A DNA stretch of 32,412 nt from assembly GCA_913042205.1 (NCBI GenBank), contig CAJWIY010000021.1:1-32412 (forward strand), given 5' to 3'. A program made the translations under genes and the position numbers. Each line of letters begins with the position of its first letter. Position 1 is the stretch's first letter. Positions 3,091 through 14,550 of this stretch are shown here, piece after piece. The notes below the pieces were generated by a model. It was not told the DNA's origin. It ran no database searches and saw only the letters and a program-made list of their open reading frames with translations. The DNA is from an uncultured Gammaproteobacteria bacterium. Its GTDB lineage: Bacteria; Pseudomonadota; Gammaproteobacteria; Pseudomonadales; Litorivicinaceae.

Positions 3091-3540
3091 TCAGCTCATC
3101 ATTCGGAACAGCATGAATAAGTGACATCCGGCCACCACGTAGGCGAGGCGTGGTCGCATTTCGAGATACCAAGAAGGTATCGGAAGCTCGGCCAGAATCG
3201 GACGGTCAATGAACCACTGCGCGATGAAACCACCGCCCAGTACGGCCAACGTTAGAGGAGCCGGAAGGGCTATCAAACAAATCCAAGCCGCGACAACGGG
3301 AACTACGGATATTAAGAGTCGTGTGCTTTGTCGGGTCCCGGTAATCAGAGCCAAGCCCCAATGAACGCCCCCCATGAATGATAAGATTGCGAGTGAGTAA
3401 AGAATAAACGCTTGAAAGGCAAGCGATACAAGTTCTTGCGAGAGAAGGGCCGTGACCGCCCCAAACACAAAGGGTATCAGGCCCAAATAGCCTAGCCGCA
3501 TACCCATGGTCTCAACGCGCACTTGCTCGTCCACAGTCAT
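3091..3540 (-). CDS. DUF3429 family integral membrane protein
   Basis: A 149-residue hydrophobic protein with about four to five membrane segments (roughly residues 14-34, 37-60, 73-108 and 125-147). It carries the family signature YSLAILSFMGGVHWG. Biochemical function is unknown. DUF3429 genes are often found near photolyases in proteobacteria (from memory). Here its ATG overlaps the stop of the upstream photolyase-like gene (ATGA), so it is the last gene of the five-gene photolyase operon. The context suggests a membrane role in light or UV response, or transport of a chromophore or precursor, but nothing in the sequence shows a mechanism. Met12 and Met14 are alternative starts. Confidence 0.85.
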   Translation of the reverse strand: MTVDEQVRVETMGMRLGYLGLIPFVFGAVTALLSQELVSLAFQAFILYSLAILSFMGGVHWGLALITGTRQSTRLLISVVPVVAAWICLIALPAPLTLAVLGGGFIAQWFIDRPILAELPIPSWYLEMRPRLAYVVAGCHLFMLFRMMS

Positions 3541-5078
3541 TCCAGATCCAAAGCCATTTGTGAAAGAGGTGGCTTTTTACCATAGCGGGGCCGAGCCTGT
3601 CTCAGTCGACTCCCGTGCGCCCTCAAGACCCGCTGAGCTTCGGGCTTCATATCATGTGACTCGACCCAAGATTTCAGCCGTGATCGTGCTTCACGCCCTA
3701 GTTGAGCGGGGTCTCCAATCGGTTCTGGGTAATCTAGACCGATCCGACAGCCAATTTTCTGTTGCAGACTCAAGGGCATCCGCCATGGCTGGTGGATCCA
3801 CTCTAATGGCACTGATTCCAACTCTGGAATCCATTGCTTGATAAAAATACCGTAGGGATCCTGATCCTCCGACTGTTTAATAGGTGAATACATGCGATTC
3901 GCATTAATTCCAGTAGTACCAGACTGCATTTGAATCTGCGACCAATGAATCCCCGCCTCGAAATCAGTGAACCATCGCGCCATCTGAATCCCGGTTTTAC
4001 GCCAATCAATCCACAAGTGATAACTCGCGATCGAGACCAGCATCGCTCGCATCCGAAAATTCAGCCAGCCAGTTGCGGCGAGGTATCTCAAACAGGCATC
4101 AACAAAAGGCCATCCCAAAGTACCGCGACAGAATCGTTCACGCCGCTCTACCTCCAGGTCCGGCGCTCCATGTCGAAGTCCTATATAGCCACGATGTAAT
4201 TCCTCGAATTCAAGCCGCGGCTCAGACTCTAGTTTTTGAATAAAATGACAATGCCAATGAAGCCTCGACTGAAATGATTTAAGGCTTCTTCGGGCAACAC
4301 TTCTCCCCGTCTCCTCCTTTAGATCCTGACGACGATCCAACGTACGCTGCCAGACCTCTCTTACGCTCAATGCTCCGACAGATAGATGTGTTGATATTCG
4401 TGAGCATGCGATTTCTCCAGTCGAGGGGCTAGACATACCACTTCGGTATGTCTCACAACGGTCATTAAGAAAACTATCCAATAACAATAGCGCGTTACTG
4501 CGGCCCCCTTCTTGGTTGGACATCGGAATCTCGTCCGCAACTGAAAAACTTTGCAGCACGTCAGACGCCGGTTTTGGAGGTAGTCCGATACCAAGTATTT
4601 TCGTGGGTGCAGAGAACTGAGGCAGGCCCATCAACTGGTCCCACTGTGATGACCAACCCCGGCGTTCTTGGAGGCCACGTATCACGCCATGTTGTCGATA
4701 CTCATCCCATGCAATCCCGTGGTCTTCGGACCAACGTTTCACACTCATATCGCGTTCATAGGTCCAACCAGATCCGGTCTCCTGATGGGAAACTATCCTG
4801 CAAAACTGAAATTTTTTGTAGAGACGATCGAGTACCTCCGGAGCGTTGCCGATTAGGATCCAAAGCGGTTGTCCCAATGCCGTTAGTTCTTGGTCCAGAG
4901 ATATCAGAGAGTCTTTGAGAAAGGACCACTGACGACCCGAGGTGTATTCCATTGCCCAATAATCGGGTTCAATAACATATAAGGGGAGTACCTTCCCTTC
5001 CCTAACAGCCTGATCTAGGGGCTCGTGATCAACCACACGTAGGTCGCGTTTGAACCAGACTATGATTTGCGGGGTCAT
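3537..5078 (-). CDS. Photolyase/cryptochrome family flavoprotein of a divergent class I-like branch
   Basis: A 513-residue member of the photolyase/cryptochrome superfamily. The N-terminal antenna-binding Rossmann domain begins IIVWFKRDLRVVDHEPL (to about residue 130). The C-terminal FAD domain includes RLHWHCHFIQKLE, GWPFVDACLRYLAATGWLNFRMR and GINANRMYSPIKQSEDQDPYG. The segment that reads DLAANNGGWQWAAS in classical CPD photolyases reads EAGIHWSQIQMQSG here, so the Asn that faces the flavin is not conserved. I recall this as a separate subfamily with poorly known lesion specificity. ATG at 5078 is preferred over the upstream TTG at 5087: it overlaps the DASH stop as ATGA and lies 11 bases from AGGAGG, while the TTG is only 3 bases from it. 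Function as a DNA-repair photolyase is inferred. Confidence 0.93.
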   Translation of the reverse strand: MTPQIIVWFKRDLRVVDHEPLDQAVREGKVLPLYVIEPDYWAMEYTSGRQWSFLKDSLISLDQELTALGQPLWILIGNAPEVLDRLYKKFQFCRIVSHQETGSGWTYERDMSVKRWSEDHGIAWDEYRQHGVIRGLQERRGWSSQWDQLMGLPQFSAPTKILGIGLPPKPASDVLQSFSVADEIPMSNQEGGRSNALLLLDSFLNDRCETYRSGMSSPSTGEIACSRISTHLSVGALSVREVWQRTLDRRQDLKEETGRSVARRSLKSFQSRLHWHCHFIQKLESEPRLEFEELHRGYIGLRHGAPDLEVERRERFCRGTLGWPFVDACLRYLAATGWLNFRMRAMLVSIASYHLWIDWRKTGIQMARWFTDFEAGIHWSQIQMQSGTTGINANRMYSPIKQSEDQDPYGIFIKQWIPELESVPLEWIHQPWRMPLSLQQKIGCRIGLDYPEPIGDPAQLGREARSRLKSWVESHDMKPEAQRVLRAHGSRLRQARPRYGKKPPLSQMALDLE

Positions 5079-6364
5079 TGTAACCAACGCCTCCTATAAG
5101 TCTTATCAGGGTCATACCGATCAGCCTGGTCATTTAAATTGAAAATCCGTCCACCCCTCGGGTCCGGTCCAACACCAGCAATATAGGCCCAGTTACCCCA
5201 ATTACTGGCCACATCAAAATCGACTAACCGGCTTTCGAAATAGGCAGCCCCCAACCGCCAGTCAAGATTCGATTCATAGATCAGATGGCTGGCGACCAGC
5301 TGCCTGGCACGGTTGCTCATCCATCCAGTCTGGTTTAGTTCACGCATCGCCGCATCAACGATGTCACACCCAGTATTACCTGTACTCCACGCCACAAAAC
5401 GTCGACGATTTTGGTCGACATCTGCGTCCTTATCGTTCGGTCCACTTACCCGGAACAAAGTCCAGTCACATGCTCTCGAGTACCAGCGGAAAAATTCACG
5501 CCATAAGAGCTCAAATCGAAGCCAATAAGTCGACTCATTGGCCCCTTCTCTGTGCTCATAATCAAGTATGTCAGACCAAATCTGACGGGCAGAGATGCAT
5601 CCATGGGCGAGCCAGGCCGATAAGTGACTCGACCGCGTAGGCCCACACAGAGAGTTCCGGGTCAGTTTATAGTGAGACAACGCTCCCGCATCGAGGTATG
5701 CCTGCCAATGCTCCAAAGCTGAAGCTTCACCTCCAATCGTCTGGACCTCGGTCTCAGGCGATGTTTGGTTTCGTAAAGCCTCTATCCACTCGCTTGGATC
5801 TGGCCATGGTTGGGGCAATGACGGGGGCAGCTCAGGAATTGACTGTGGTGGATCCGGAAAAATTCCCGGTTTTTTTTCCACAACTTTCCTGAACTTTGAG
5901 AATGTTGCCGGTAGATCAATCAGGTCAAACGGTAGTTGATCGAAGCGAAAGAGCTCATCGGTATACACAACCTCGCTCTGAAAATCCTCAGCTTGAATTC
6001 GCTCTGTCTCGAGCCGTTCCTCCGTTCCCAAAGGCGCATCACCAAAGACCGTGCATACTTGGCATGCTTGTCGCGCCCGCATCAACGCACGCACTGGTTC
6101 CTCGGCACTGATCCAGAGCCCACATCCTTGCGCGGAGAGATCGTCACGTAGGGACTGAAGACTCTCTGCGCGGAAACGAGCCCAGTGCTCCCCGACGCGA
6201 GGCAACCCAAATTGCTGATTAGCCCAACGCCTGGGCTCCAAACAAGCCAGCGGGACCAGCTGTGCGCCAATCGATTTGGCTAGTGTTGACGCACGCCCAA
6301 GAGCAGGGTTATCAGACAAGCGGCACGTGTCGCGAACCAACCAGACGACAATCTCAGGCTTCAT
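5075..6364 (-). CDS. DASH-type cryptochrome / photolyase
   Basis: Cry-DASH proteins bind FAD and usually methenyltetrahydrofolate. They repair cyclobutane dimers, best in single-stranded or looped DNA, and may also signal. The 429 residues fit the bacterial DASH length. Diagnostic DASH features are [14 protein letters not shown] after the antenna domain, [42 protein letters not shown], and the C-terminal run [22 protein letters not shown] followed by [21 protein letters not shown]. The ATG at 6364 has GAGG 8 bases upstream and lies inside the end of the DUF2256 gene (11-base overlap). The TGA overlaps the next photolyase start. It is the third gene of the photolyase operon and is probably co-translated with its neighbours. 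Confidence 0.95.
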
Positions 6365-6518
6365 GAGTCAACCCTCGTCGCCTGCACCGCTCGCTACAAT
6401 ATACGACCAAATCCCAGTCACGCTCCCATTTTTTTCGCCACGAAAACGAACGATCGCATACCGGGCAGAGTTTGGTCGGTAAATCACTTTTCTTAACTGT
6501 TTTGCCACTCCGGTTCAT
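6354..6518 (-). CDS. DUF2256 zinc-binding mini-protein, 54 residues
   Basis: A small gene easily missed by length cut-offs. It reads [16 protein letters not shown] and then a zinc-ribbon-like core: CPVC (Cys18, Cys21), [13 protein letters not shown], and YCSERCRR (Cys41, Cys45), ending GLTHEA. Four Cys in a CxxC...CxxxC arrangement with a basic, Trp-rich middle is the DUF2256 signature. That family is typically encoded next to photolyase/cryptochrome genes. The ATG overlaps the stop of the upstream FeS photolyase (ATGA), with AAGG 9 bases before it. The 3' end overlaps the DASH gene by 11 bases, so the gene is locked between two photolyase genes. No function is established; a DNA-binding or photolyase-partner role is inference from charge, Cys pattern and context. 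Confidence 0.93.
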
Positions 6519-8086
6519 AGCAACCGGCCTTCTGGTAACACCCTAGTGTCCCCGCCATCTAAAGCTACGCGGTCACGAAAAGCTGTCGCCTTAGCTTTTA
6601 TTGTCTCAAGCTTCTCGCTTCCAAAGCGATCGAGATTTTTTAAGATCATGGCCATACGCGGATTTGACTTGAAACGCTCCCGATGAGTGTGCAAGAAATC
6701 CCAATACAAATAGTTGAATGGGCAGGCATCGTCTGTCGTTGTCTCTTTCACACGGTATCGGCACGACTTGCAGTAGTTACTCATGCGATCGATGTATTTG
6801 CCGCTTGAACAGTAGGGCTTCGACGCCATCACACCGTCGTCGGCAAACAACGCCATCCCAAGCGTATTGGGAAGCTCGACCCACTCATAAGCGTCTGCGT
6901 AAACTGACAAATACCAGTCACAGACGGCTTCAACGGAACACCCCGCGATCAGGGCAAAATTGCCTGTCACCATTAGTCGCTGAATATGATGTGCGTAGGC
7001 GTTCTGTCTTGTGTTGCGTATTGCTTCAGACAGACAGACCATATCTGTCTTCGTTTCGTCCCAAAAAAACGATGGTAGGGGCCATGATGCGTTCAGGGTA
7101 TTACGGTCCTTATACTCAGGCATGTATGCCCAATACAGACCACGCACATATTCACGCCAACCGATGATTTGCCGGATAAATCCTTCTACGGCATTAATAG
7201 GCGCTGCGCCGTTACGGAATGCTTTTTCAGCGGCGACGCAGACCTCTAGCGGACTCAACAGCCCAAGATTCAAGCTGGTCGAGATCAAACTATGGTAAAG
7301 CGTATCCTTACCCAAAACCATGGCGTCCTGAAAGTCCCCGAATGATTCCAACCGCTCTTTTGTAAAATGATCAAATATTTGCAGCGCTTGTGAACGGGTA
7401 ACCGGCCATTGAAAACTATCTATTTCCAACTCACCAAAATGATCGGCAAAATGCGTCTTGACCAGTTCAAAAACCTCTTCGGTGATCGGATCAACTGGCC
7501 AAGTCGGCCGACTGGGGGTCTCTCGGCGATCCAATGCCTTGCGATTATCATGATCAAAATTCCACTTCCCTCCGACTGGATCTTTGCCGTCCATCAGTAG
7601 ACCTGTCGATTGCCTGATCCTCCGATAAAAGTGCTCCATCCGGGGTTGTTTCCGGCCTTTGAGGAATTCGTTGAACTCCTCGTGTGAGCAAATAAATCGT
7701 TTGTCTGGACAAATCTCGAACGGAACAGGAATTCTCGATGTGAGTGCCTCGAACTCGTTCTTCAGGCGCCACTCTCCGGGTTCTGTGACATACCAGGCAT
7801 CGAACTGATGGGCTATCTGTAAGCGTTCCACCTCACCGACAAGACTCTGACTGTTCTCAGAATCGGTCAGTTCGATGTAAATCACTTCACGTCCGGCGTC
7901 ACGTAAATCAGCCGCAAAATGACGCATCGCGCTGAAAATAAGTGCGATTTTTTGCTTATGGTGCTTGACATACGAGGCCTCCGACCAAACCTCTGCCATT
8001 ACGACAACGTCTTCAGGCTCAAGAAGTTGCAGCGATGGGAGGTCAATAGATAGCTGATCCCCAAGGATCAGGCAACAACGGGCCAA
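6515..8086 (-). CDS. Iron-sulfur bacterial cryptochrome/photolyase (FeS-BCP, PhrB/CryB type)
   Basis: A 523-residue member of the COG3046 photolyase-related family, whose characterised members repair (6-4) photoproducts and carry FAD, a ribityllumazine antenna and a [4Fe-4S] cluster. The N-terminus is LILGDQLS. The expected four cluster Cys are visible at 351 (DMVC), 439 and 442 (NYCKSCRY) and 455 (ACPFN), close to the spacing in Agrobacterium PhrB. Other family blocks include [13 protein letters not shown] and [15 protein letters not shown]. The start is taken as TTG at 8086, with AGGAG 7 bases upstream. This puts Met next to [10 protein letters not shown] and removes an overlap with the divergent peroxidase gene; an ATG at 8146 would add 20 atypical residues. 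It is the first gene of the five-gene operon. Confidence 0.94.
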
Positions 8087-8093
8087 AGATGTG

Positions 8094-8098
8094 CTCCT
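8094..8098 (-). promoter_or_regulatory. Ribosome binding site supporting a TTG start of the FeS photolyase
   Basis: Read on the minus strand this is AGGAG, 7 bases before TTG at 8086. It is the only good Shine-Dalgarno near the conserved N-terminus. With this start only 33 bases separate the photolyase and peroxidase start codons, so at least one promoter must lie within the other gene's coding sequence. Confidence 0.6.
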
Positions 8099-8119
8099 GT
8101 AACAACGAGGATGACATCC

Positions 8120-8674
8120 ATGAACCTCAGAAAAAACATTCTCCAATCGGTAGTAGTGGTGATCAGCATGACAATTTTAAAGGCAAACGCGACCTGCGCT
8201 CCTCTTCTTGACCACTCCGCCCGAAAATTAGCCGGAGACCAAGTCGATCGACTCTGTGAGATTTATAAAGGCCAGGTAGTGATGATTGTAAATACAGCGT
8301 CGAAATGCGGTTTTACTCCGCAGTTTGATGGTCTCGAGACTCTCTACCGCAAGTACAAAGATCGAGGGTTTACAGTGTTAGGATTCCCGTCGAAGGATTT
8401 TGGTAACCAAGAGTATGGAACCGAGCAAGAAACTGCTGATTTTTGTCGTTTGACCTATGGGGTCCAATTCCCAATGTACGCGACAACGAACGCAAAAAAA
8501 GGAAAAGCGAATCCGCTCTTTAAAGGATTAGCCGAGGCCGCGGACGGCGATTACCCGTCATGGAATTTCCACAAATATATCCTCGACCGAAATGGCAACC
8601 TGATTGGGAGCTTTGGGTCTTTCACTGGGCCATCATCTAAGCGACTCGCGAGAGTCATCGAGGGAGCGCTTTAG
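8120..8674 (+). CDS. Glutathione peroxidase family protein, predicted exported
   Basis: A thiol peroxidase of the GPx family, reducing hydrogen peroxide or lipid hydroperoxides with glutathione or thioredoxin. The 184 residues begin with a basic then hydrophobic stretch (MNLRKNILQSVVVVISM, possible cleavage near ANA at residue 24), suggesting a periplasmic enzyme. The peroxidatic Cys63 is in NTASKCGFTPQ, and the WNF motif supplies Trp148 and Asn149. The usual Gln of the catalytic tetrad (NQFG) is Asp93 here (SKDFGNQE), a change I recall in a bacterial subfamily. The start at 8120 is chosen over 8111 because GAGG at 8107-8110 lies 9 bases before it. It is divergent from the photolyase operon, so both may respond to light or oxidative stress; that link is inference. 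Confidence 0.9.
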   Translation: MNLRKNILQSVVVVISMTILKANATCAPLLDHSARKLAGDQVDRLCEIYKGQVVMIVNTASKCGFTPQFDGLETLYRKYKDRGFTVLGFPSKDFGNQEYGTEQETADFCRLTYGVQFPMYATTNAKKGKANPLFKGLAEAADGDYPSWNFHKYILDRNGNLIGSFGSFTGPSSKRLARVIEGAL

Positions 8675-9087: not shown

Positions 9088-9641
9088 ACCTGTCCGATTA
9101 GTCGCATGAACTCGCTCCGGGTCGCCTGTTGCTCTCTGAAATCACCAAGCATTACAGAGCTCGCCATTGTCGAATTCTGTTTCTCAACCCCACGCATCAT
9201 CATGCAAAAGTGACGTGCTTCGATCACGACCCCAACGCCCCTCGCCCCTGTCACCTCTTGGACCGCGAGAGCAACCTGACGGGTCAGGTTTTCTTGGATT
9301 TGTAAACGCCTGGCGAACATGTCAGTAATCCGAGCAAACTTTGATAGCCCAAGTACTTTACCGTTTGGCAGATACCCGATATGACAGCGTCCGGTGAATG
9401 GCAACATGTGATGCTCGCACATCGAATACAACTCGATGTCACGCACTACGACCATCTCGTCGTTATCTGAGTCGAACACAGCGTTGTTGACGACTGTCGT
9501 GAGGTCTTGGCGGTATCCTGATGTCAGAAATTCCATGGCTTTGGCAGCGCGCTGTGGGGTATCTAGCAGCCCTTCCCGCTCAGGATCTTCTCCGATCGCT
9601 CGGATCACATCGCGGTAGGATTCAGATAATGAATCAATCAT
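9084..9641 (-). CDS. folE: GTP cyclohydrolase I
   Basis: Converts GTP to 7,8-dihydroneopterin triphosphate, the entry to folate and monapterin synthesis. The 185 residues include the zinc-binding [10 protein letters not shown] (Cys75, His78), [20 protein letters not shown], and [15 protein letters not shown] (Cys146 as the third zinc ligand). Length and motifs are normal for the zinc-dependent FolE1 type. GGAG sits a few bases before the ATG. It is first in a folE-folX pair, divergent from the flippase-like gene. Because folX follows directly, much of the product may go to monapterin rather than folate. Light-induced folE beside phr/cry genes is known in Pseudomonas putida (from memory), which makes the nearby photolyase operon relevant. 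Confidence 0.97.
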
Positions 9642-9731
9642 AGGGTCTCCAAATTTTTTGGCAACTGCTCAGCAATGCCGGTGATAACACTGTACCATCC
9701 AAAGTAAATTGACGGCTCGCTGCCTTTACCT
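9642..9731. other. Divergent intergenic region, folE / flippase-like gene
   Basis: At 90 bases this is the longest gene-free stretch and must carry the 5' regions of both flanking units. On the plus strand TTGGCA at 9658-9663 and TGATAA at 9682-9687 are spaced 18 bases apart and could form a weak sigma-70 promoter. No convincing operator, palindrome or riboswitch is visible. Confidence 0.35.
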
Positions 9732-10658
9732 ATGGCCCCTTTGATAGAAAACAATAAATTGAAAATGATTTGGCTTAAATTAGTCGTAGCTATCGTACTT
9801 TTATTGGCCACAATCTGGATCGTAACCGGTCTCGTAGACTTAACTTCACTGATGAACGCGATCGGATCGCTACCTGTTCGTACAATGCTTATCGTGTTCC
9901 TCTTGGGAGCGGTAAGCTGGTTTTTGCGTGGTTTACGAACCTATATTTTGTTCGAAAAAGTCCCTCTAGCTCAATCACTCGGAATGAGCTTCGTCCACAA
10001 TACCGCTAACAATCTCGCGCCCATGCGCTTAGGAGAGTTGGTGTTACCGGCATTGGCTCGATGGATGGGGAACATCGAATTTTCTGTCGGGTTAACAGGC
10101 CTTGTATGGATTCGTCTGCTCGATTTCATAAGCCTAATCGGCATAAGTGTCTGCATTATCTTGCTGCCATCCGCGGGGGCAATTATGTTGGTCCTGCTCG
10201 CTGCTTTGATCTTCCTGACACCTCTGTTAATGGCCGTAGTGGTGCCAAAAATCCAGCACATATGGCTACCACGAATACTGGAAAAAGCTCGAGATCAATT
10301 GATTTTTGAGGCACGAAATGGTCGACGACTGCAGCAAATGTGGCGCCTAACTATTCTTGCCTGGCTCTCAAAATTAGTGAGCATGGGAATTCTCTTAGCA
10401 GCGTTATCTGGGATTCCGATGACCGATCTGATGGCCACGATCTTAGGTGCAGAACTATCCTCTATCCTGCCCGTCCACGGACTGGCGGGAGCAGGAAGTT
10501 ATGAGATGGGCGGTGTTTTGGGCTCGAGCTTGATAGGGCTATCGCCGATTCTTGCCCTAGAAATTACAATACAACTTCACATTTACGTACTGAGTCTCAC
10601 GATGGTCTTCGGTATACTCGGCGTTTTGCTACTTATTAAACGGACTTTCGATGTCTGA
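9732..10658 (+). CDS. Flippase-like membrane protein (UPF0104 / LPG_synthase_TM family)
   Basis: A 308-residue polytopic membrane protein with about seven to eight predicted membrane segments. It carries the family's conserved features, for example NLAPMRLGELVLPALAR (cytosolic loop, about residues 93-109) and the late motif GLAGAGSYEMGGVLG (about 253-267). The family includes the membrane half of MprF and YbhN-like proteins, and some members are thought to flip lipid-linked substrates. The gene overlaps the downstream GT2 gene by 8 bases, and that overlaps a GT39 gene. The context therefore points to transfer of a polyprenyl-phosphate sugar to the periplasmic side; this is inference. The aminoacyl-transferase domain of MprF is absent. 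Met12 (9765) is an alternative start. Confidence 0.85.
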   Translation: MAPLIENNKLKMIWLKLVVAIVLLLATIWIVTGLVDLTSLMNAIGSLPVRTMLIVFLLGAVSWFLRGLRTYILFEKVPLAQSLGMSFVHNTANNLAPMRLGELVLPALARWMGNIEFSVGLTGLVWIRLLDFISLIGISVCIILLPSAGAIMLVLLAALIFLTPLLMAVVVPKIQHIWLPRILEKARDQLIFEARNGRRLQQMWRLTILAWLSKLVSMGILLAALSGIPMTDLMATILGAELSSILPVHGLAGAGSYEMGGVLGSSLIGLSPILALEITIQLHIYVLSLTMVFGILGVLLLIKRTFDV

Positions 10659-11637
10659 AACGTTGCCCCGTCTATCAGTTGTTATTCCTCTCTATAAGGA
10701 AGAAGACAACATTGAACCCCTGGTTATAGAATTACATGCCGCTTTGAAAGATTATCCTGGTGAGTTTGAACTGGTATTTGTCGACGATGGCAGTACCGAC
10801 CGCACTCTTGAGTTACTTGTTGAGGCCCGAAAGAATCATGGTGACCACATCATGGTCATCTCGCACAGACGCAACCTCGGACAGACGCAAGCCATGCAGA
10901 CTGGCCTGCAGCTGACCCGCGGTGACGTCATAGCCTTCATGGATGGCGATTTACAAAATGATCCAGCCGATATCCCTAGCATGGTTCAAAGGCTTGAATC
11001 CGACCGGCTAGATCTGCTTTGCGGTTGGCGCAAAAACCGTCAGGACAGTTTGGACCGTACGTTACCCTCAAGAATTGCTAATTGGCTGATAGGATGGGTC
11101 ACTGGTGTAGCCCTTCATGATTATGGATGCAGCCTAAAGGTCGGCCGTCGTGACGTTCTTGAGGGGCTCGATCTGCGAGGAGAAATGCATAGATTTATCC
11201 CATTATGGGTGGCAAATCTGACGCATCCTAGCCGCATCGCTGAAATCCCTGTCAACCATCGGGCTCGCTCTGCGGGGATCTCCAAGTATGGAATTTCTCG
11301 CACCCCGAGAGTCATACTTGATCTGCTCGCTGCATGGTTTTTCCTCAGATTCAAAGAGCGTCCTGGGCATTTTTTTGGGGTCGCTGGTCTGGTCACTGGT
11401 TCGCTTGGTGGGTTAGCCCTTACCTACTTGTTTATACTAAAATTGATAGGAGACGATATTGCGGCTCGCCCACTACTCATTACAGGTGTCTTGCTCGCGT
11501 TGGTCGGACTTCAACTGATTACCACCGGACTCATCGCGGAGATGCTGACACGATTACGGAGTCGTAGGCAGCCATTACTCACAAAAAAAATCGATACGAT
11601 GGTTTGGATGAAAGGATCTGATGACGGCGCTGAGTAA
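10651..11637 (+). CDS. GT2 polyprenyl-phosphate glycosyltransferase (ArnC/DPM1-like)
   Basis: Probably transfers a sugar from a nucleotide donor to undecaprenyl phosphate at the inner face of the membrane. The GT-A domain (residues 8-235) shows SVVIPLYKEEDNIEPL, the nucleotide-binding VDDGSTDRT and the metal-binding FMDGDLQNDPADI. The C-terminus has two membrane helices (about 244-268 and 275-300), as in ArnC, GtrB and DPM1-like bacterial enzymes. The sugar cannot be read from the sequence. It overlaps both neighbours (8 bases upstream, 17 downstream), so the three proteins are made together. The pair with a GT39 enzyme resembles the FlmF/FlmK lipid A sugar-modification pair of Francisella (named from memory). 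Confidence 0.92.
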   Translation: MSETLPRLSVVIPLYKEEDNIEPLVIELHAALKDYPGEFELVFVDDGSTDRTLELLVEARKNHGDHIMVISHRRNLGQTQAMQTGLQLTRGDVIAFMDGDLQNDPADIPSMVQRLESDRLDLLCGWRKNRQDSLDRTLPSRIANWLIGWVTGVALHDYGCSLKVGRRDVLEGLDLRGEMHRFIPLWVANLTHPSRIAEIPVNHRARSAGISKYGISRTPRVILDLLAAWFFLRFKERPGHFFGVAGLVTGSLGGLALTYLFILKLIGDDIAARPLLITGVLLALVGLQLITTGLIAEMLTRLRSRRQPLLTKKIDTMVWMKGSDDGAE

Positions 11638-13195
11638 ACCCGACTGGCGCTTATTTCTTTGCCTTGTCGTTCTGGGCTTAATCGGTACCTGGATTCCCTT
11701 ATTCGACCTCGATGAAGGTGCTTTTTTAGAAGCGACCCGCGAGCTGTTAGATGGTGGCCATTGGGCGGCAACCACACTAAATGGAGAGCCCCGTTACGAT
11801 AAGCCAATCCTGTCTTACTGGCTTCAGGCATCTTCCCTGACTCTTTTCGGATGGCTCAGCCCAGCGATTCCCATCGAAACAATCGGGAGACTACCCTCGG
11901 TTATCGCGGGTGCCCTTTGGGCGACGGTTCTAGGGCGTTTTAGCGAAGAAGTAACCAAGAAACCGGGACTTGGAGTATTCGTTGCCCTAGCTCTGGCGAC
12001 CACCCTCGGTACCTCGATTATCTCGCGCGCCGCGACCGCCGATGCACTATTGAACCTATGGCTTGCTCTTCTTTTTACGGACATTGCACGTTACATCCTT
12101 AACCCAAGCGATTCACTGCGCCTCAAAGTATTTTTGTGGTTGGGTTTGGGAATCCTCACCAAGGGCCCTGTGGCGGTAATTATCCCCGCCTGCGCTTTTA
12201 GCTTCTGGATTCTATTATCCAATCAGTGGTCATTGTTTTGGAGTGCAATCCAATCGTGGGGAGGCTGGGTATTAATTATTGCGCTCCTGACACCTTGGTT
12301 GATTGGCGTCTATGATGCGCAAGGCTATTCCTTCTTCGAGAACTTCATTCTATTGCACAACGTGGAACGATTTTCTGGCAACCTCCATGGTCATGGCGGC
12401 CATCCGCTGTACTATTTATTGGTGATGCCGTTAGTTTTGTTGCCCTACAGCGGGCTAGTGGTAGCGGTTCTAATACGAATCCGCGAATACTGGGCCTGTC
12501 CTATCAATCGATTTGCGCTGATCTGGGTAGCCATCGTAGTGATCTTGGTGTCATCATCGGGAACTCAACTGCCACACTATATTTTGTATTCAACCGCCCC
12601 GTTGTTCGTGCTCTATGCCCGAGTCTTGCCTACCCTAGTTTCTCGACTTTGGGCATTACCCGGTTTGTTTGTTCCTGTATCAATACTTGGGTTTGGTCTA
12701 CTCCATCATCTGTTACCGGAACCAAACCATCTCCGGGATCAGGAGCAGCTCACTATGTTGCTTCAGTTAATGATCGAATGGCGGATACCATTGGCAGCTT
12801 CAAGTCTGGGCTTGTTGCTTTTAAGCCTAACCGCGTTGCTAATCCCCAAGTGGCAGCTCAGTCAACGATTGATAACGCTCGGATGCGTTCAACTAGCGTG
12901 TATAACGCTCATCGTTCTCCCACTCATATCAGAAGCTAGACAGCAGCCATTGAAAGAGGCAGCACTGATTGCTAAAAAGGCGAAAGCTGATGTCGTATCC
13001 CAGGGCATACGTATGCCAAGCTTCTCGTTTTATCGCGGCGCGATTACGAGAGAGCAGGCGCCGACCGAAGGGCAGTGGGTTCTAATTTCTTTAACGCGTT
13101 TTCAAGAGCTAGAGGCCCTAAATTCTGCCTTTGAGACCAAAGCATCTGGCCCAGGCTGGAGACTTATCGCACCACGCGAGCCGTTTAAGATCTAG
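11621..13195 (+). CDS. GT39 / ArnT-like membrane glycosyltransferase
   Basis: A 524-residue integral membrane enzyme expected to transfer a sugar from undecaprenyl phosphate to an acceptor on the periplasmic side, such as lipid A, another glycan or a protein. The first periplasmic loop has the diagnostic acidic pair and following block ([20 protein letters not shown], then [14 protein letters not shown]), as in ArnT and protein O-mannosyltransferases. About eleven to twelve membrane segments follow, then a soluble C-terminal tail from about residue 440. AAGGA precedes the ATG, which overlaps the GT2 gene. No other arn genes (arnA, B, D) are present, so aminoarabinose is unlikely and a simple hexose or hexosamine is more plausible. 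The stop shares CTAG with the convergent msrB stop. Confidence 0.9.
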
Positions 13196-13599
13196 TCTTT
13201 TGATTTCAACTGTAGGCTCGCTGAATTGATGCAGTAACGAAGTCCAGTCGGCATCGGGCCATCATTGAAAACGTGGCCTAGGTGTGCGTCACATATGCTG
13301 CATGTAACTTCGGTTCGTGGCATGAAGAAAATAGATCGATCGTCGTGCTCCTCAATCGCTGCGCCGGATAATGGTTGGAAGAAGCTCGGCCATCCAGTAC
13401 CTGAATCGAATTTGTGATCGGAGTCAAACAACGGGGTATCGCAGCAGATACAGTGATATATAGCCGGTGTCTTCAAATCATGATAGGCATTTTCAAAAGG
13501 GCGCTCCGTCCCCTTCTCTCGCGTAACATGGTACGACTCGTCTGATAGATCAGTTCTCCATTCCACGTCCGATTTCTTTACTTTTTTTTGTGTACGCAT
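13192..13599 (-). CDS. msrB: Peptide-methionine (R)-S-oxide reductase
   Basis: Reduces the R epimer of methionine sulfoxide in oxidised proteins. The 135 residues carry both structural zinc CxxC pairs (Cys50/Cys53 in HCICCD and Cys100/Cys103 in CSICDAH), the substrate block [12 protein letters not shown] and the catalytic Cys123 in RYCINSASL. No signal peptide is seen, so it acts in the cytosol. It is divergent from htpX across 66 bases, pairing two protein-damage functions. The stop codon overlaps that of the convergent GT39 gene. It is single-domain, without an MsrA fusion. Confidence 0.96.
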
Positions 13600-13601
13600 A
13601 A

Positions 13602-13627
13602 CTTGAACTCTTCGCCGAAACCAATAT
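13602..13627 (+). promoter_or_regulatory. Candidate sigma-32 (heat-shock) promoter of htpX
   Basis: CTTGAA (13602-13607) matches the sigma-32 -35 consensus exactly. After 12 bases the segment ACCAATAT (13620-13627) fits most of the CCCCATNT -10 consensus. It lies about 40 bases before the htpX ATG in the only free DNA upstream of that gene. E. coli htpX is heat-shock regulated, which supports the reading. The same bases also contain an alternative sigma-70 reading (TTGAAC, 16 bases, TATGTT). Confidence 0.55.
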
Positions 13628-13665
13628 GTTACTTGTGTGAAGAGCCACCCTCAACAGAGGTCTAT

Positions 13666-14550
13666 ATGTTACGAATAGGATTGTTCCTCCTAACCAACCT
13701 CGCCATTGTGATTGTTGCAAGCATCACACTAAGCCTGCTCGGCTTTGAAGGATATCTCGCAGCAAACGGTGTAGATTTAAACCTCTCGAGCCTACTGGTG
13801 TTCTGTTTCGTTTTTGGTATGGCTGGGAGCGTCGTTAGCCTCCTTCTCTCCAAAACCATAGCGAAAATGGGAACAAGAACCCAAGTCATTGCGCAGCCTA
13901 GAAATCCGGACGAGAAATGGCTCCTTGATACAGTAGCTGAACTAGCTAACGACGCTGGTATTGGGATGCCGGAAGTCGGAATTTTCCAGAGCCCAACGAG
14001 CAACGCGTTTGCAACAGGCTGGAATCGGAACAACGCGCTGGTGGCGGTCAGTACTGGCCTTTTAAACCGATTCAGTAAGGATGAAGCGCGCGCTGTTATG
14101 GCTCACGAGATTGGTCACGTGGCTAACGGAGACATGGTCACCCTCGCCCTGATCCAGGGCGTTGTGAATACCTTTGTGATGTTCTTCTCACGGGTTATTG
14201 GCCATACCATTGACCGGGCTGTATTTAAGACTGAGCGCGGTCACGGACCTGCTTTTTACATCACTACCTTCATTACCGAAATTATCCTAGGCGTACTCGC
14301 CTCTATAATAGTTTTCTGGTTCTCACGCCAACGCGAATTCAAGGCCGATGCGGCTGGCGCACGATTGGCTGGAGGAGCCGCAATGATTGGTGCATTAGAA
14401 CGACTTAGAGCCGAGCAAGGCGCACCGTCGGAACTTCCCGATTCCATGATGGCTTTCGGGATCCGTACAGGGGGGAAATCTATGACACGTCTGTTCATGA
14501 CCCACCCTCCGCTTGAGGAGCGGATTGCAGCTCTTAGGGCAGGCCGCTGA
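13666..14550 (+). CDS. htpX: Membrane zinc metalloprotease HtpX (M48)
   Basis: An inner-membrane protease of the M48B family that removes misfolded membrane proteins together with FtsH. The 294 residues match the usual length (293 in E. coli). They start [14 protein letters not shown] with two N-terminal membrane helices. The zinc site is AHEIGH (His147, Glu148, His151), with the third ligand in [13 protein letters not shown], and two further hydrophobic segments lie between. The start at 13666 is chosen by homology and AGAGG 6 to 7 bases upstream; an in-frame upstream ATG at 13588 would overlap msrB and add an unrelated Cys-rich extension. A heat-shock promoter candidate lies just upstream. 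It ends 10 bases from the convergent metZ stop, with no clear terminator. Confidence 0.97.

Follow-up and report, generated by a model that had tools for sequence, protein, structure and literature searches.

Three overlapping genes

The window, a 32,412-nucleotide stretch of DNA from a marine gammaproteobacterium, carries on its forward strand at positions 9732-13195 three open reading frames, each overlapping the next, that encode a PF03706 protein, a GT2 glycosyltransferase and an ArnT-like transferase (Table 1). ORF coordinates and Pfam matches bear out the first-pass annotation of three overlapping genes in this order, with overlaps of 8 bases (PF03706 and GT2 genes) and 17 bases (GT2 and transferase genes). 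Its family labels UPF0104 and GT2 also stand, while its label GT39 for the third gene proved loose: the protein matches PMT_2 and, weakly, the arnT model, and ArnT is a member of CAZy family GT83. The neighbours of the cassette in the window are folE, folB and msrB. A scan of positions 9500-13700 returned 5 promoter-like matches against a shuffle mean of 4.9, i.e. no excess, and a terminator scan of the cassette region likewise revealed no excess over shuffles.

Table 1. Features of the cassette region
Feature	Position	Strand	Length	Basis
Gap before divergent folE; expected site of the cassette promoter	9642..9731		90 bases	position only
PF03706/UPF0104 (MprF-, YbhN-type) membrane protein; candidate polyprenyl-phosphate-sugar flippase/scramblase	9732..10658	+	308 aa	Pfam, fold, invariant residues
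GT2 ArnC/GtrB-like polyprenyl-phosphate glycosyltransferase; proposed donor synthase	10651..11637	+	328 aa	Pfam, profile matches, invariant residues
ArnT-like GT-C transferase (PMT_2); proposed periplasmic transferase	11621..13195	+	524 aa	Pfam, profile, fold, invariant residues

The two glycosyltransferases

The GT2 protein scores 108.2 bits for PF00535 (Pfam cut-off 23.3), and comparing its profile with solved structures revealed nearly full-length matches to ArnC (9hwj, E 2.1e-73) and to the GtrB-type protein sll0501 (5eke, E 2.7e-50). Two hydrophobic segments lie toward its C-terminus (residues 244-262 and 277-295). By family and hydrophobic segments, the protein is consistent with a polyprenyl-phosphate sugar synthase that has membrane helices at its C-terminus.

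The third protein reaches 33.6 bits for PF13231 (Pfam cut-off 26.1) and is the single ArnT-like match in the window's genome. Its profile matched one solved structure, ArnT 5ezm (E 4.3e-46), and its predicted model (pLDDT 92.3) matched 5f15, ArnT with undecaprenyl phosphate, in Foldseek (E 3.1e-18, TM 0.81/0.79). Family and predicted fold thus point to a GT-C transferase of the PMT/ArnT kind.

For the conservation analysis, alignment sets were filtered by length and score (PF03706, 63 to 60 sequences; GT2, 72 to 58; transferase, 107 to 74) and hand-thinned to 53, 45 and 51 sequences, respectively; alignments A1 and A3 hold sequences from loci that were themselves fetched with the transferase. 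Invariant positions are R69, P97, G101, R128, P247 and G255 in the PF03706 protein (53/53), D46, D98 and D100 in the GT2 (45/45), and D31, D60, K61, K181 and R250 in the transferase (51/51). Invariant in the transferase alignment are the residues aligning with Lys-69 and Arg-254 of ArnT, mapped through the profile match to 5ezm and a constant numbering offset; both are needed for ArnT activity, according to PMC5377068.

A predicted MprF-type fold in the PF03706 protein

The first protein belongs to the PF03706/UPF0104 family by its gathering score (67.7 bits, Pfam cut-off 33.4) and its MprF-type fold, and is the single PF03706 (LPG_synthase_TM) match in the window's genome. A search of solved structures with its sequence profile found nothing up to an E of 1, and Foldseek with its model (pLDDT 90.6) returned none at E up to 0.001. 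Because Foldseek gave MprF at E 3.2e-3 only, the fold claim is carried by the VIA comparison, which matched the N-terminal flippase domain of MprF in five entries (Z 15.3-16.5 over 276-281 residues; identity to MprF 12-15%) with the next unrelated structure at 7.1, on a scale where mostly helical models that lack a clear match in Foldseek can still attain a best Z near 14. The best VIA match, 9j8q, has a Z of 16.5 and an rmsd of 5.3 over 276 residues.

The predicted MprF fold extends across nearly the whole PF03706 protein, which, unlike MprF, is without an aminoacyl-transferase domain. MprF moves aminoacyl-phospholipids, so the shared fold is not proof of the substrate. PMC11980842 describes an E295-R319 salt bridge in MprF; the counterpart of its arginine may be a histidine, H283, in the PF03706 protein, an assignment made by spacing only, and this position is histidine in 45 of 53 aligned sequences.

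Linkage of the PF03706 and transferase genes in relatives

Among 76 relatives, searched with the window proteins as sole queries, 21 genomes have a PF03706 match, and a transferase at E<1e-70, a cut picked after viewing the list, occurs in these 21 and in no others. Outside the genus the two genes co-occur in 4 of 54 genomes (p 3e-6); three of these four have all three genes together, and in G037 the transferase begins another contig. Within the genus, all three genes were detected in 17 of 22 genomes; 14 of the 17 keep them on a single contig with the order unchanged, and in G006, G010 and G011 they are spread over several contigs; G005 and G006 have an in-frame stop in the transferase reading. 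The five genus genomes that have none of the three genes are 60% (G004), 56% (G016), 63% (G018), 61% (G021) and 95% (G015) complete.

We then turned to public transferase loci, taking the best 80 of 297 and counting neighbours with home-made profiles. A PF03706 gene lies within 5 kb at 62 of the 80, and none was found beyond 5 kb in the 342 kb of outer flank of these loci, the flanks being at most 8 kb long. Among the non-genus loci that extend at least 4.5 kb to either side, 44 in all, seven have no nearby PF03706 gene. A scan of all ORFs revealed PF03706 genes at L142, L144 and L146. With FLP for the PF03706 gene and GT for the transferase gene, the order FLP-GT2-GT occurs at 43 of the 80 loci (13 from the genus), and cultivated relatives such as Amphritea and Neptunomonas share it; a divergent FLP followed by GT2-GT occurs at 6, GT2-FLP-GT at 4, GT-GT2-FLP at 3, and two more orders once each, making four recurrent arrangements. 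A lack of co-occurrence between UPF0104 and the GT pair in relatives, named beforehand as an outcome that would count against the first-pass reading, was not what these data showed.

A survey of 229 genomes of the class pointed the same way, although it overlaps with the locus set and so is no independent test, some genomes apparently being shared (the contigs of L080 and G231 have the same length, 38,237). With preset cuts, 18 genomes were common to sets of 27 and 37 (expected 4.4, p 1.6e-10). With strict cuts of 1e-160 and 1e-69, picked after viewing the data, 16 genomes hold both PF03706 and transferase genes: within 3 kb of each other in 10, 12 kb apart in G232, and on different contigs in 5. 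In G155, G095 and G242 the PF03706 gene has other company, namely the GT2 gene, a PAP2 gene and a transferase-type gene of another kind; G155 and G095 also have a strong transferase with neither GT2 nor PF03706 nearby. Seven genomes have a strong PF03706 protein and no strong transferase, and in five of these an ArnC-like GT2 gene is adjacent or within 1.5 kb. Linkage of PF03706 and transferase genes is conserved across rearranged gene orders, but it is imperfect.

A PAP2 phosphatase gene, counted with an in-house profile that started from a single PAP2 protein confirmed by Pfam, lies within 5 kb at 52 of 64 non-genus loci versus 0 of 16 genus loci among the 80, and no PAP2 gene was detectable in the window's genome. 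Because it is absent from both, we rejected PAP2 as a core fourth part and regard it as an add-on. When models of PAP2 proteins were compared for lipid A versus carrier action, all scores fell below the cut-off.

Comparison with the aminoarabinose pathway

Two of the three cassette proteins have ArnC and ArnT as their nearest solved structures, which speaks for an aminoarabinose (Arn) pathway whose flippase has been exchanged; the ArnC-ArnEF-ArnT system divides the labour in the same way. Against this, both proteins fall far below curated cut-offs (GT2 versus arnC, 174.9 bits, cut-off 529; transferase versus arnT, 93.8 bits, cut-off 567), and the RYA motif of ArnT is lost, reading A-F-S/T/L/A in the aligned cassette transferases. 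No ArnD deacetylase was found: a PF01522 search of the genome yielded only the allantoinase PuuE (513.9 bits, over a cut-off of 424.6), which lies beside an OHCU decarboxylase, and a dedicated deacetylase or sugar-modifying gene was rejected on this ground. Neither of the genome's two PF01041 (DegT-family) matches qualifies by score as the ArnB aminotransferase; one, which adjoins a PseG-like gene, scores 151.4 bits where the arnB model requires 631, and the second is an O-acetylhomoserine sulfhydrylase. Judged by curated scores for ArnB, ArnC, ArnD and ArnT, an Arn pathway with a replaced flippase is highly improbable, and the earlier suggestion of a non-aminoarabinose sugar receives modest support.

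A second ArnC-like GT2, on contig C79, adjoins PseC/PseG-like genes, neither of which reaches its model cut-off; it was set aside as a cassette part and taken to belong to a separate surface-glycan cluster.

Discussion

We consider it probable that the cassette is a three-component extracytoplasmic glycosylation system in which the flippase candidate is an MprF-type PF03706 protein. Directly supported are the gene structure, the family assignments, the predicted folds, the residue conservation and the linkage across gene orders; from these we infer the reaction of each protein, the direction of flipping and the action of the PF03706 protein on a polyprenyl-phosphate sugar. The GT2 would attach one sugar to polyprenyl (undecaprenyl) phosphate at the cytoplasmic face, the PF03706 protein would carry the resulting lipid-linked sugar across to the periplasmic side, and the ArnT-like enzyme would transfer the sugar to an envelope acceptor, releasing polyprenyl phosphate. 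Co-occurrence and linkage in relatives thus favour the make-flip-transfer scheme of the first-pass annotation, with flipping as its conjectural step. A search of the window's genome for the GtrA family (PF04138) gave no match (control genomes, 7 of 14 positive). Lipid A is the leading guess for the acceptor, plausible if somewhat short of an even chance.

Might the PF03706 protein instead return released polyprenyl phosphate to the cytoplasmic face, or scramble bulk lipid, and export no donor? According to PMC11980842, Pseudomonas aeruginosa MprF is a promiscuous scramblase in vitro, independent of the proton-motive force in its authors' view, and the transferase would free polyprenyl phosphate outside, as PMC12826051 states for the L-Ara4N pathway. 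The genome, however, already has two DedA/VTT-domain proteins, a family credited with recycling in PMC12826051; a house-keeping recycler would need no lasting linkage to one GT2, and the neighbours folE, folB and msrB offer no alternative export candidate. We regard such a role as rather unlikely.

The cassette could also make a glycosylated membrane lipid, with the PF03706 protein flipping the product. A precedent is the GpgSDF operon of Pseudomonas aeruginosa, which, according to PMC12713373, couples a glycosyltransferase acting on phosphatidylglycerol with GpgF, a UPF0104 protein predicted to flip a glycosylated phospholipid (GlcN-PG was still found in the gpgF mutant). Like the cassette, this glycolipid operon is a set of three genes that includes a predicted flippase of the UPF0104 family; the partners differ, since GpgS belongs to GT4 and has a predicted cytoplasmic location, and GpgD is a deacetylase (PMC12713373), whereas the cassette combines a GT-C enzyme that keeps the carrier-phosphate residues of ArnT with an ArnC/GtrB-like GT2 bearing two C-terminal hydrophobic segments. 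Moreover, a periplasmic site of action is expected for the GT-C enzyme, and a product made there would need no flipping. A glycolipid product is therefore improbable, and we retain export of a polyprenyl-phosphate sugar as the preferred reading.

The membrane crossing of lipid-linked single sugars is the least proven step in such pathways; a 2024 paper states that direct flippase evidence was absent for its own and the prototype three-component proteins (PMC11127046). The cassette opens this step to direct test, being compact and conserved and having a candidate flippase matched by fold to MprF, for which transport can already be assayed in vitro (PMC11980842). More broadly, some MprF-type PF03706 proteins may form a separate flippase/scramblase class dedicated to polyprenyl-phosphate monosaccharides, serving an envelope glycosylation system of three or four parts that is widespread among Gammaproteobacteria and Campylobacterota and whose single scramblase could export charged and return spent carrier; we hold the chances for and against this to be evenly balanced. 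The cassette could also help to explain some of the UPF0104 genes that still lack an assigned function.

In the literature searched, which was mostly open-access, we found no description of a GT2, PF03706 and ArnT-like set. Possible parallels are Bordetella Lgm, Francisella Flm and archaeal AglD. The GtrA/GtrB/Gtr, GtcA/YfhO-type and Citrobacter ORF15/ORF14/ORF12 systems, as described in PMC11127046 and PMC7389260, likewise combine a polyprenyl-phosphate sugar synthase, a flippase candidate and a GT-C transferase. Their flippase candidates are GtrA/SMR or MATE proteins, in contrast to the MprF-type PF03706 protein of the cassette.

Cassette layout and host

The first-pass annotation had read a UPF0104 (PF03706) gene, an ArnC/DPM1-like GT2 gene and an ArnT-like transferase gene as one cassette, and both the genes and their grouping proved correct. 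Their same-strand overlap suggests that the three ORFs form one transcript; a promoter and terminator scan at the cassette returned nothing above chance. The divergent pair folE/folB borders the cassette on one side and the convergent gene msrB on the other; the window has 50% G+C and belongs to a 2.02 Mb assembly that is 98.36% complete. Elsewhere in the window, three photolyase-type genes stand in succession (3537-8146, minus strand), two of them combining DNA_photolyase with FAD_binding_7 domains and the third encoding a photolyase-related DPRP protein. Among the best 80 of 297 public loci, the nearest relatives of the transferase come from genomes of marine Gammaproteobacteria and from others labelled Litoricola; HIMB30 and LSUCC0096, which are among them, are described as members of the OM252 clade, 'Candidatus Halomarinus' (PMC8269220).

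Coordinates of the cassette ORFs
Feature	Position	Strand	Arrangement
PF03706 protein ORF	9732-10658	+	head-to-tail overlap with GT2 ORF
GT2 ORF	10651-11637	+	overlaps both flanking cassette ORFs
ArnT-like transferase ORF	11621-13195	+	head-to-tail overlap with GT2 ORF

The three proteins

The PF03706 protein (67.7 bits), encoded by the only such gene in the window genome, was modelled with AlphaFold from 53 sequences (pLDDT 90.6). Residues 9-308 align with the N-terminal flippase domain of MprF (VIA-align, Z 15.3-16.5, Pseudomonas and Rhizobium entries), the next chain scoring Z 7.1; Foldseek ranked the same MprF chains first, yet at E 3.2e-3 and worse. The GT2 profile matched ArnC (E 2e-73), GtrB-type sll0501 (E 3e-50) and dolichol monophosphate mannose synthase (E 5e-25) among solved structures. 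The third protein carries PF13231; ArnT was the sole match of its profile among solved sequences. The model of this protein (pLDDT 92.3) superposes on ArnT with bound undecaprenyl phosphate at TM 0.81/0.79. D31, K61 and R250 each align with a residue of ArnT, and all three are invariant in 51/51 aligned sequences. Burkholderia ArnT is reported to require Lys-69, Arg-254, Glu-493 and the tyrosine (Tyr-43) of an RYA motif (PMC5377068); K61 and R250 correspond to Lys-69 and Arg-254 at a constant numbering offset, and the RYA position reads A-F-S/T/L/A in the cassette family. Because the two basic residues match and RYA is replaced, we infer from sequence that the carrier-phosphate site looks kept and the specificity changed. 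Judged by curated scores, the cassette does not belong to the aminoarabinose pathway, giving modest support to the earlier proposal of a different sugar; lipid A as acceptor is a guess.

Linkage of the three genes

PF03706 matches to the window protein occurred in 21/76 relatives, exactly the 21 with a transferase at E<1e-70; ten further transferase matches were weaker, all without a PF03706 match. Within the genus, 17/22 genomes hold all three genes, and in 14 of the 17 they share a contig and keep the same order. The remaining five hold none; four of them are 56-63% complete and one, G015, is 95% complete. Outside it the set is present in 4/54: G046 and G061 keep the window order, in G047 the PF03706 gene is divergent, and G037 has PF03706 and GT2 on one contig, the GT2 reading containing two in-frame stops, with the transferase starting another.

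Among the best 80 of 297 public loci, PF03706 was found no more than 5 kb from the transferase at 62/80, a GT2 match at 67/80 and both at 58/80; 342 kb of outer flank contained no PF03706. Restricting the count to the 44 non-genus loci whose flanks reach 4.5 kb or more in each direction gave 37, 39 and 35. Four three-gene arrangements recur in these 80, at 43 (13 of the genus), 6, 4 and 3 loci, and two further orders appear once each; transferase-GT2-PF03706 was found at three loci in records titled Sulfurimonadaceae or Campylobacterales. That adjacency recurs despite rearrangement argues for a functional link.

Among 229 genomes across the class, 27 had the transferase and 37 PF03706, with 18 in common against 4.4 expected (p 1.6e-10). 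Stricter cuts (1e-160 and 1e-69), picked afterwards, left sets of 19 and 23 sharing 16: ten with both genes <3 kb apart, G232 at 12 kb, and five on different contigs (G095, G150, G155, G175, G242). PF03706 neighbours were inspected in four of the latter; in G095, G155 and G242 the gene is grouped with an ArnC-like GT2, a PAP2 gene and a further gene of transferase type, and in G175 with the GT2. G095 and G155 each have a strong transferase with neither partner nearby. Three strict transferase genomes lack a strong PF03706 match: in G195 a PF03706 gene (104.9 bits) overlaps the GT2 end, in G138 the transferase sits where its contig begins, and in G215 a GT2 is present, with no PF03706 match in 17 kb. 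Conversely, five of seven genomes with strong PF03706 and no strong transferase have an ArnC-like GT2 adjacent or <1.5 kb away, four of the five with a transferase-profile match nearby. Pfam confirms PMT_2 for those at loci L138 and L143; at L142 only a weak transferase match adjoins PF03706, and on the short contig L144 there is none. The tightest bond thus joins PF03706 to the GT2 proposed to make the donor, which is what a flippase for that donor would predict.

Additional components

At 52/64 non-genus loci among the best 80 of 297, a PAP2 phosphatase is encoded no more than 5 kb from the transferase, often directly downstream; at genus loci the count is 0/16. At L084 (5540-7912) the phosphatase is fused to a second PMT_2 domain in a single 791-aa frame; L097, L108 and L109 have comparably long second transferase-profile frames by profile match. 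Further transferase-profile matches occur at 23/64 of these non-genus loci, some being main-gene fragments, and one in L101 carries the ArnT C-terminal domain. At L092 (3840-7013) a frame of 1058 aa matches PF03706 across residues 775-1037 and, up to E 0.001, nothing else in Pfam. In the window genome, L133 (contig C79) places an ArnC-like GT2 in a PseC/PseG-like cluster, both Pse-like genes below model cut-offs, which possibly serves a nonulosonic-acid-like surface glycan.

Proposed mechanism and comparison with known systems

In the best reading, GT2 would charge the carrier lipid, the PF03706 protein would flip it and the ArnT-like enzyme would transfer the sugar. The flippase role proposed by the first-pass annotation is now much better supported. 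As MprF is described as a promiscuous scramblase in vitro (PMC11980842), an MprF-type mover of lipid-linked sugar is plausible by analogy. With such activity the PF03706 protein may additionally return spent carrier. The window genome encodes two DedA-type proteins. A PF01569 (PAP2) search of that genome found no match (11/14 control genomes were positive); a different enzyme, BacA for example, may therefore dephosphorylate undecaprenyl pyrophosphate there.

We file the cassette, with its flipping step as an inferred one, as a variant of three-component glycosylation. PMC11127046 itself states that direct flippase evidence is lacking for its own and the prototype proteins. A GtrA-family search of the window genome found none. 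The flippase candidates described for known three-component systems are GtrA/SMR or MATE proteins (PMC11127046, PMC7389260), whereas the candidate here is a PF03706 protein of the MprF type.
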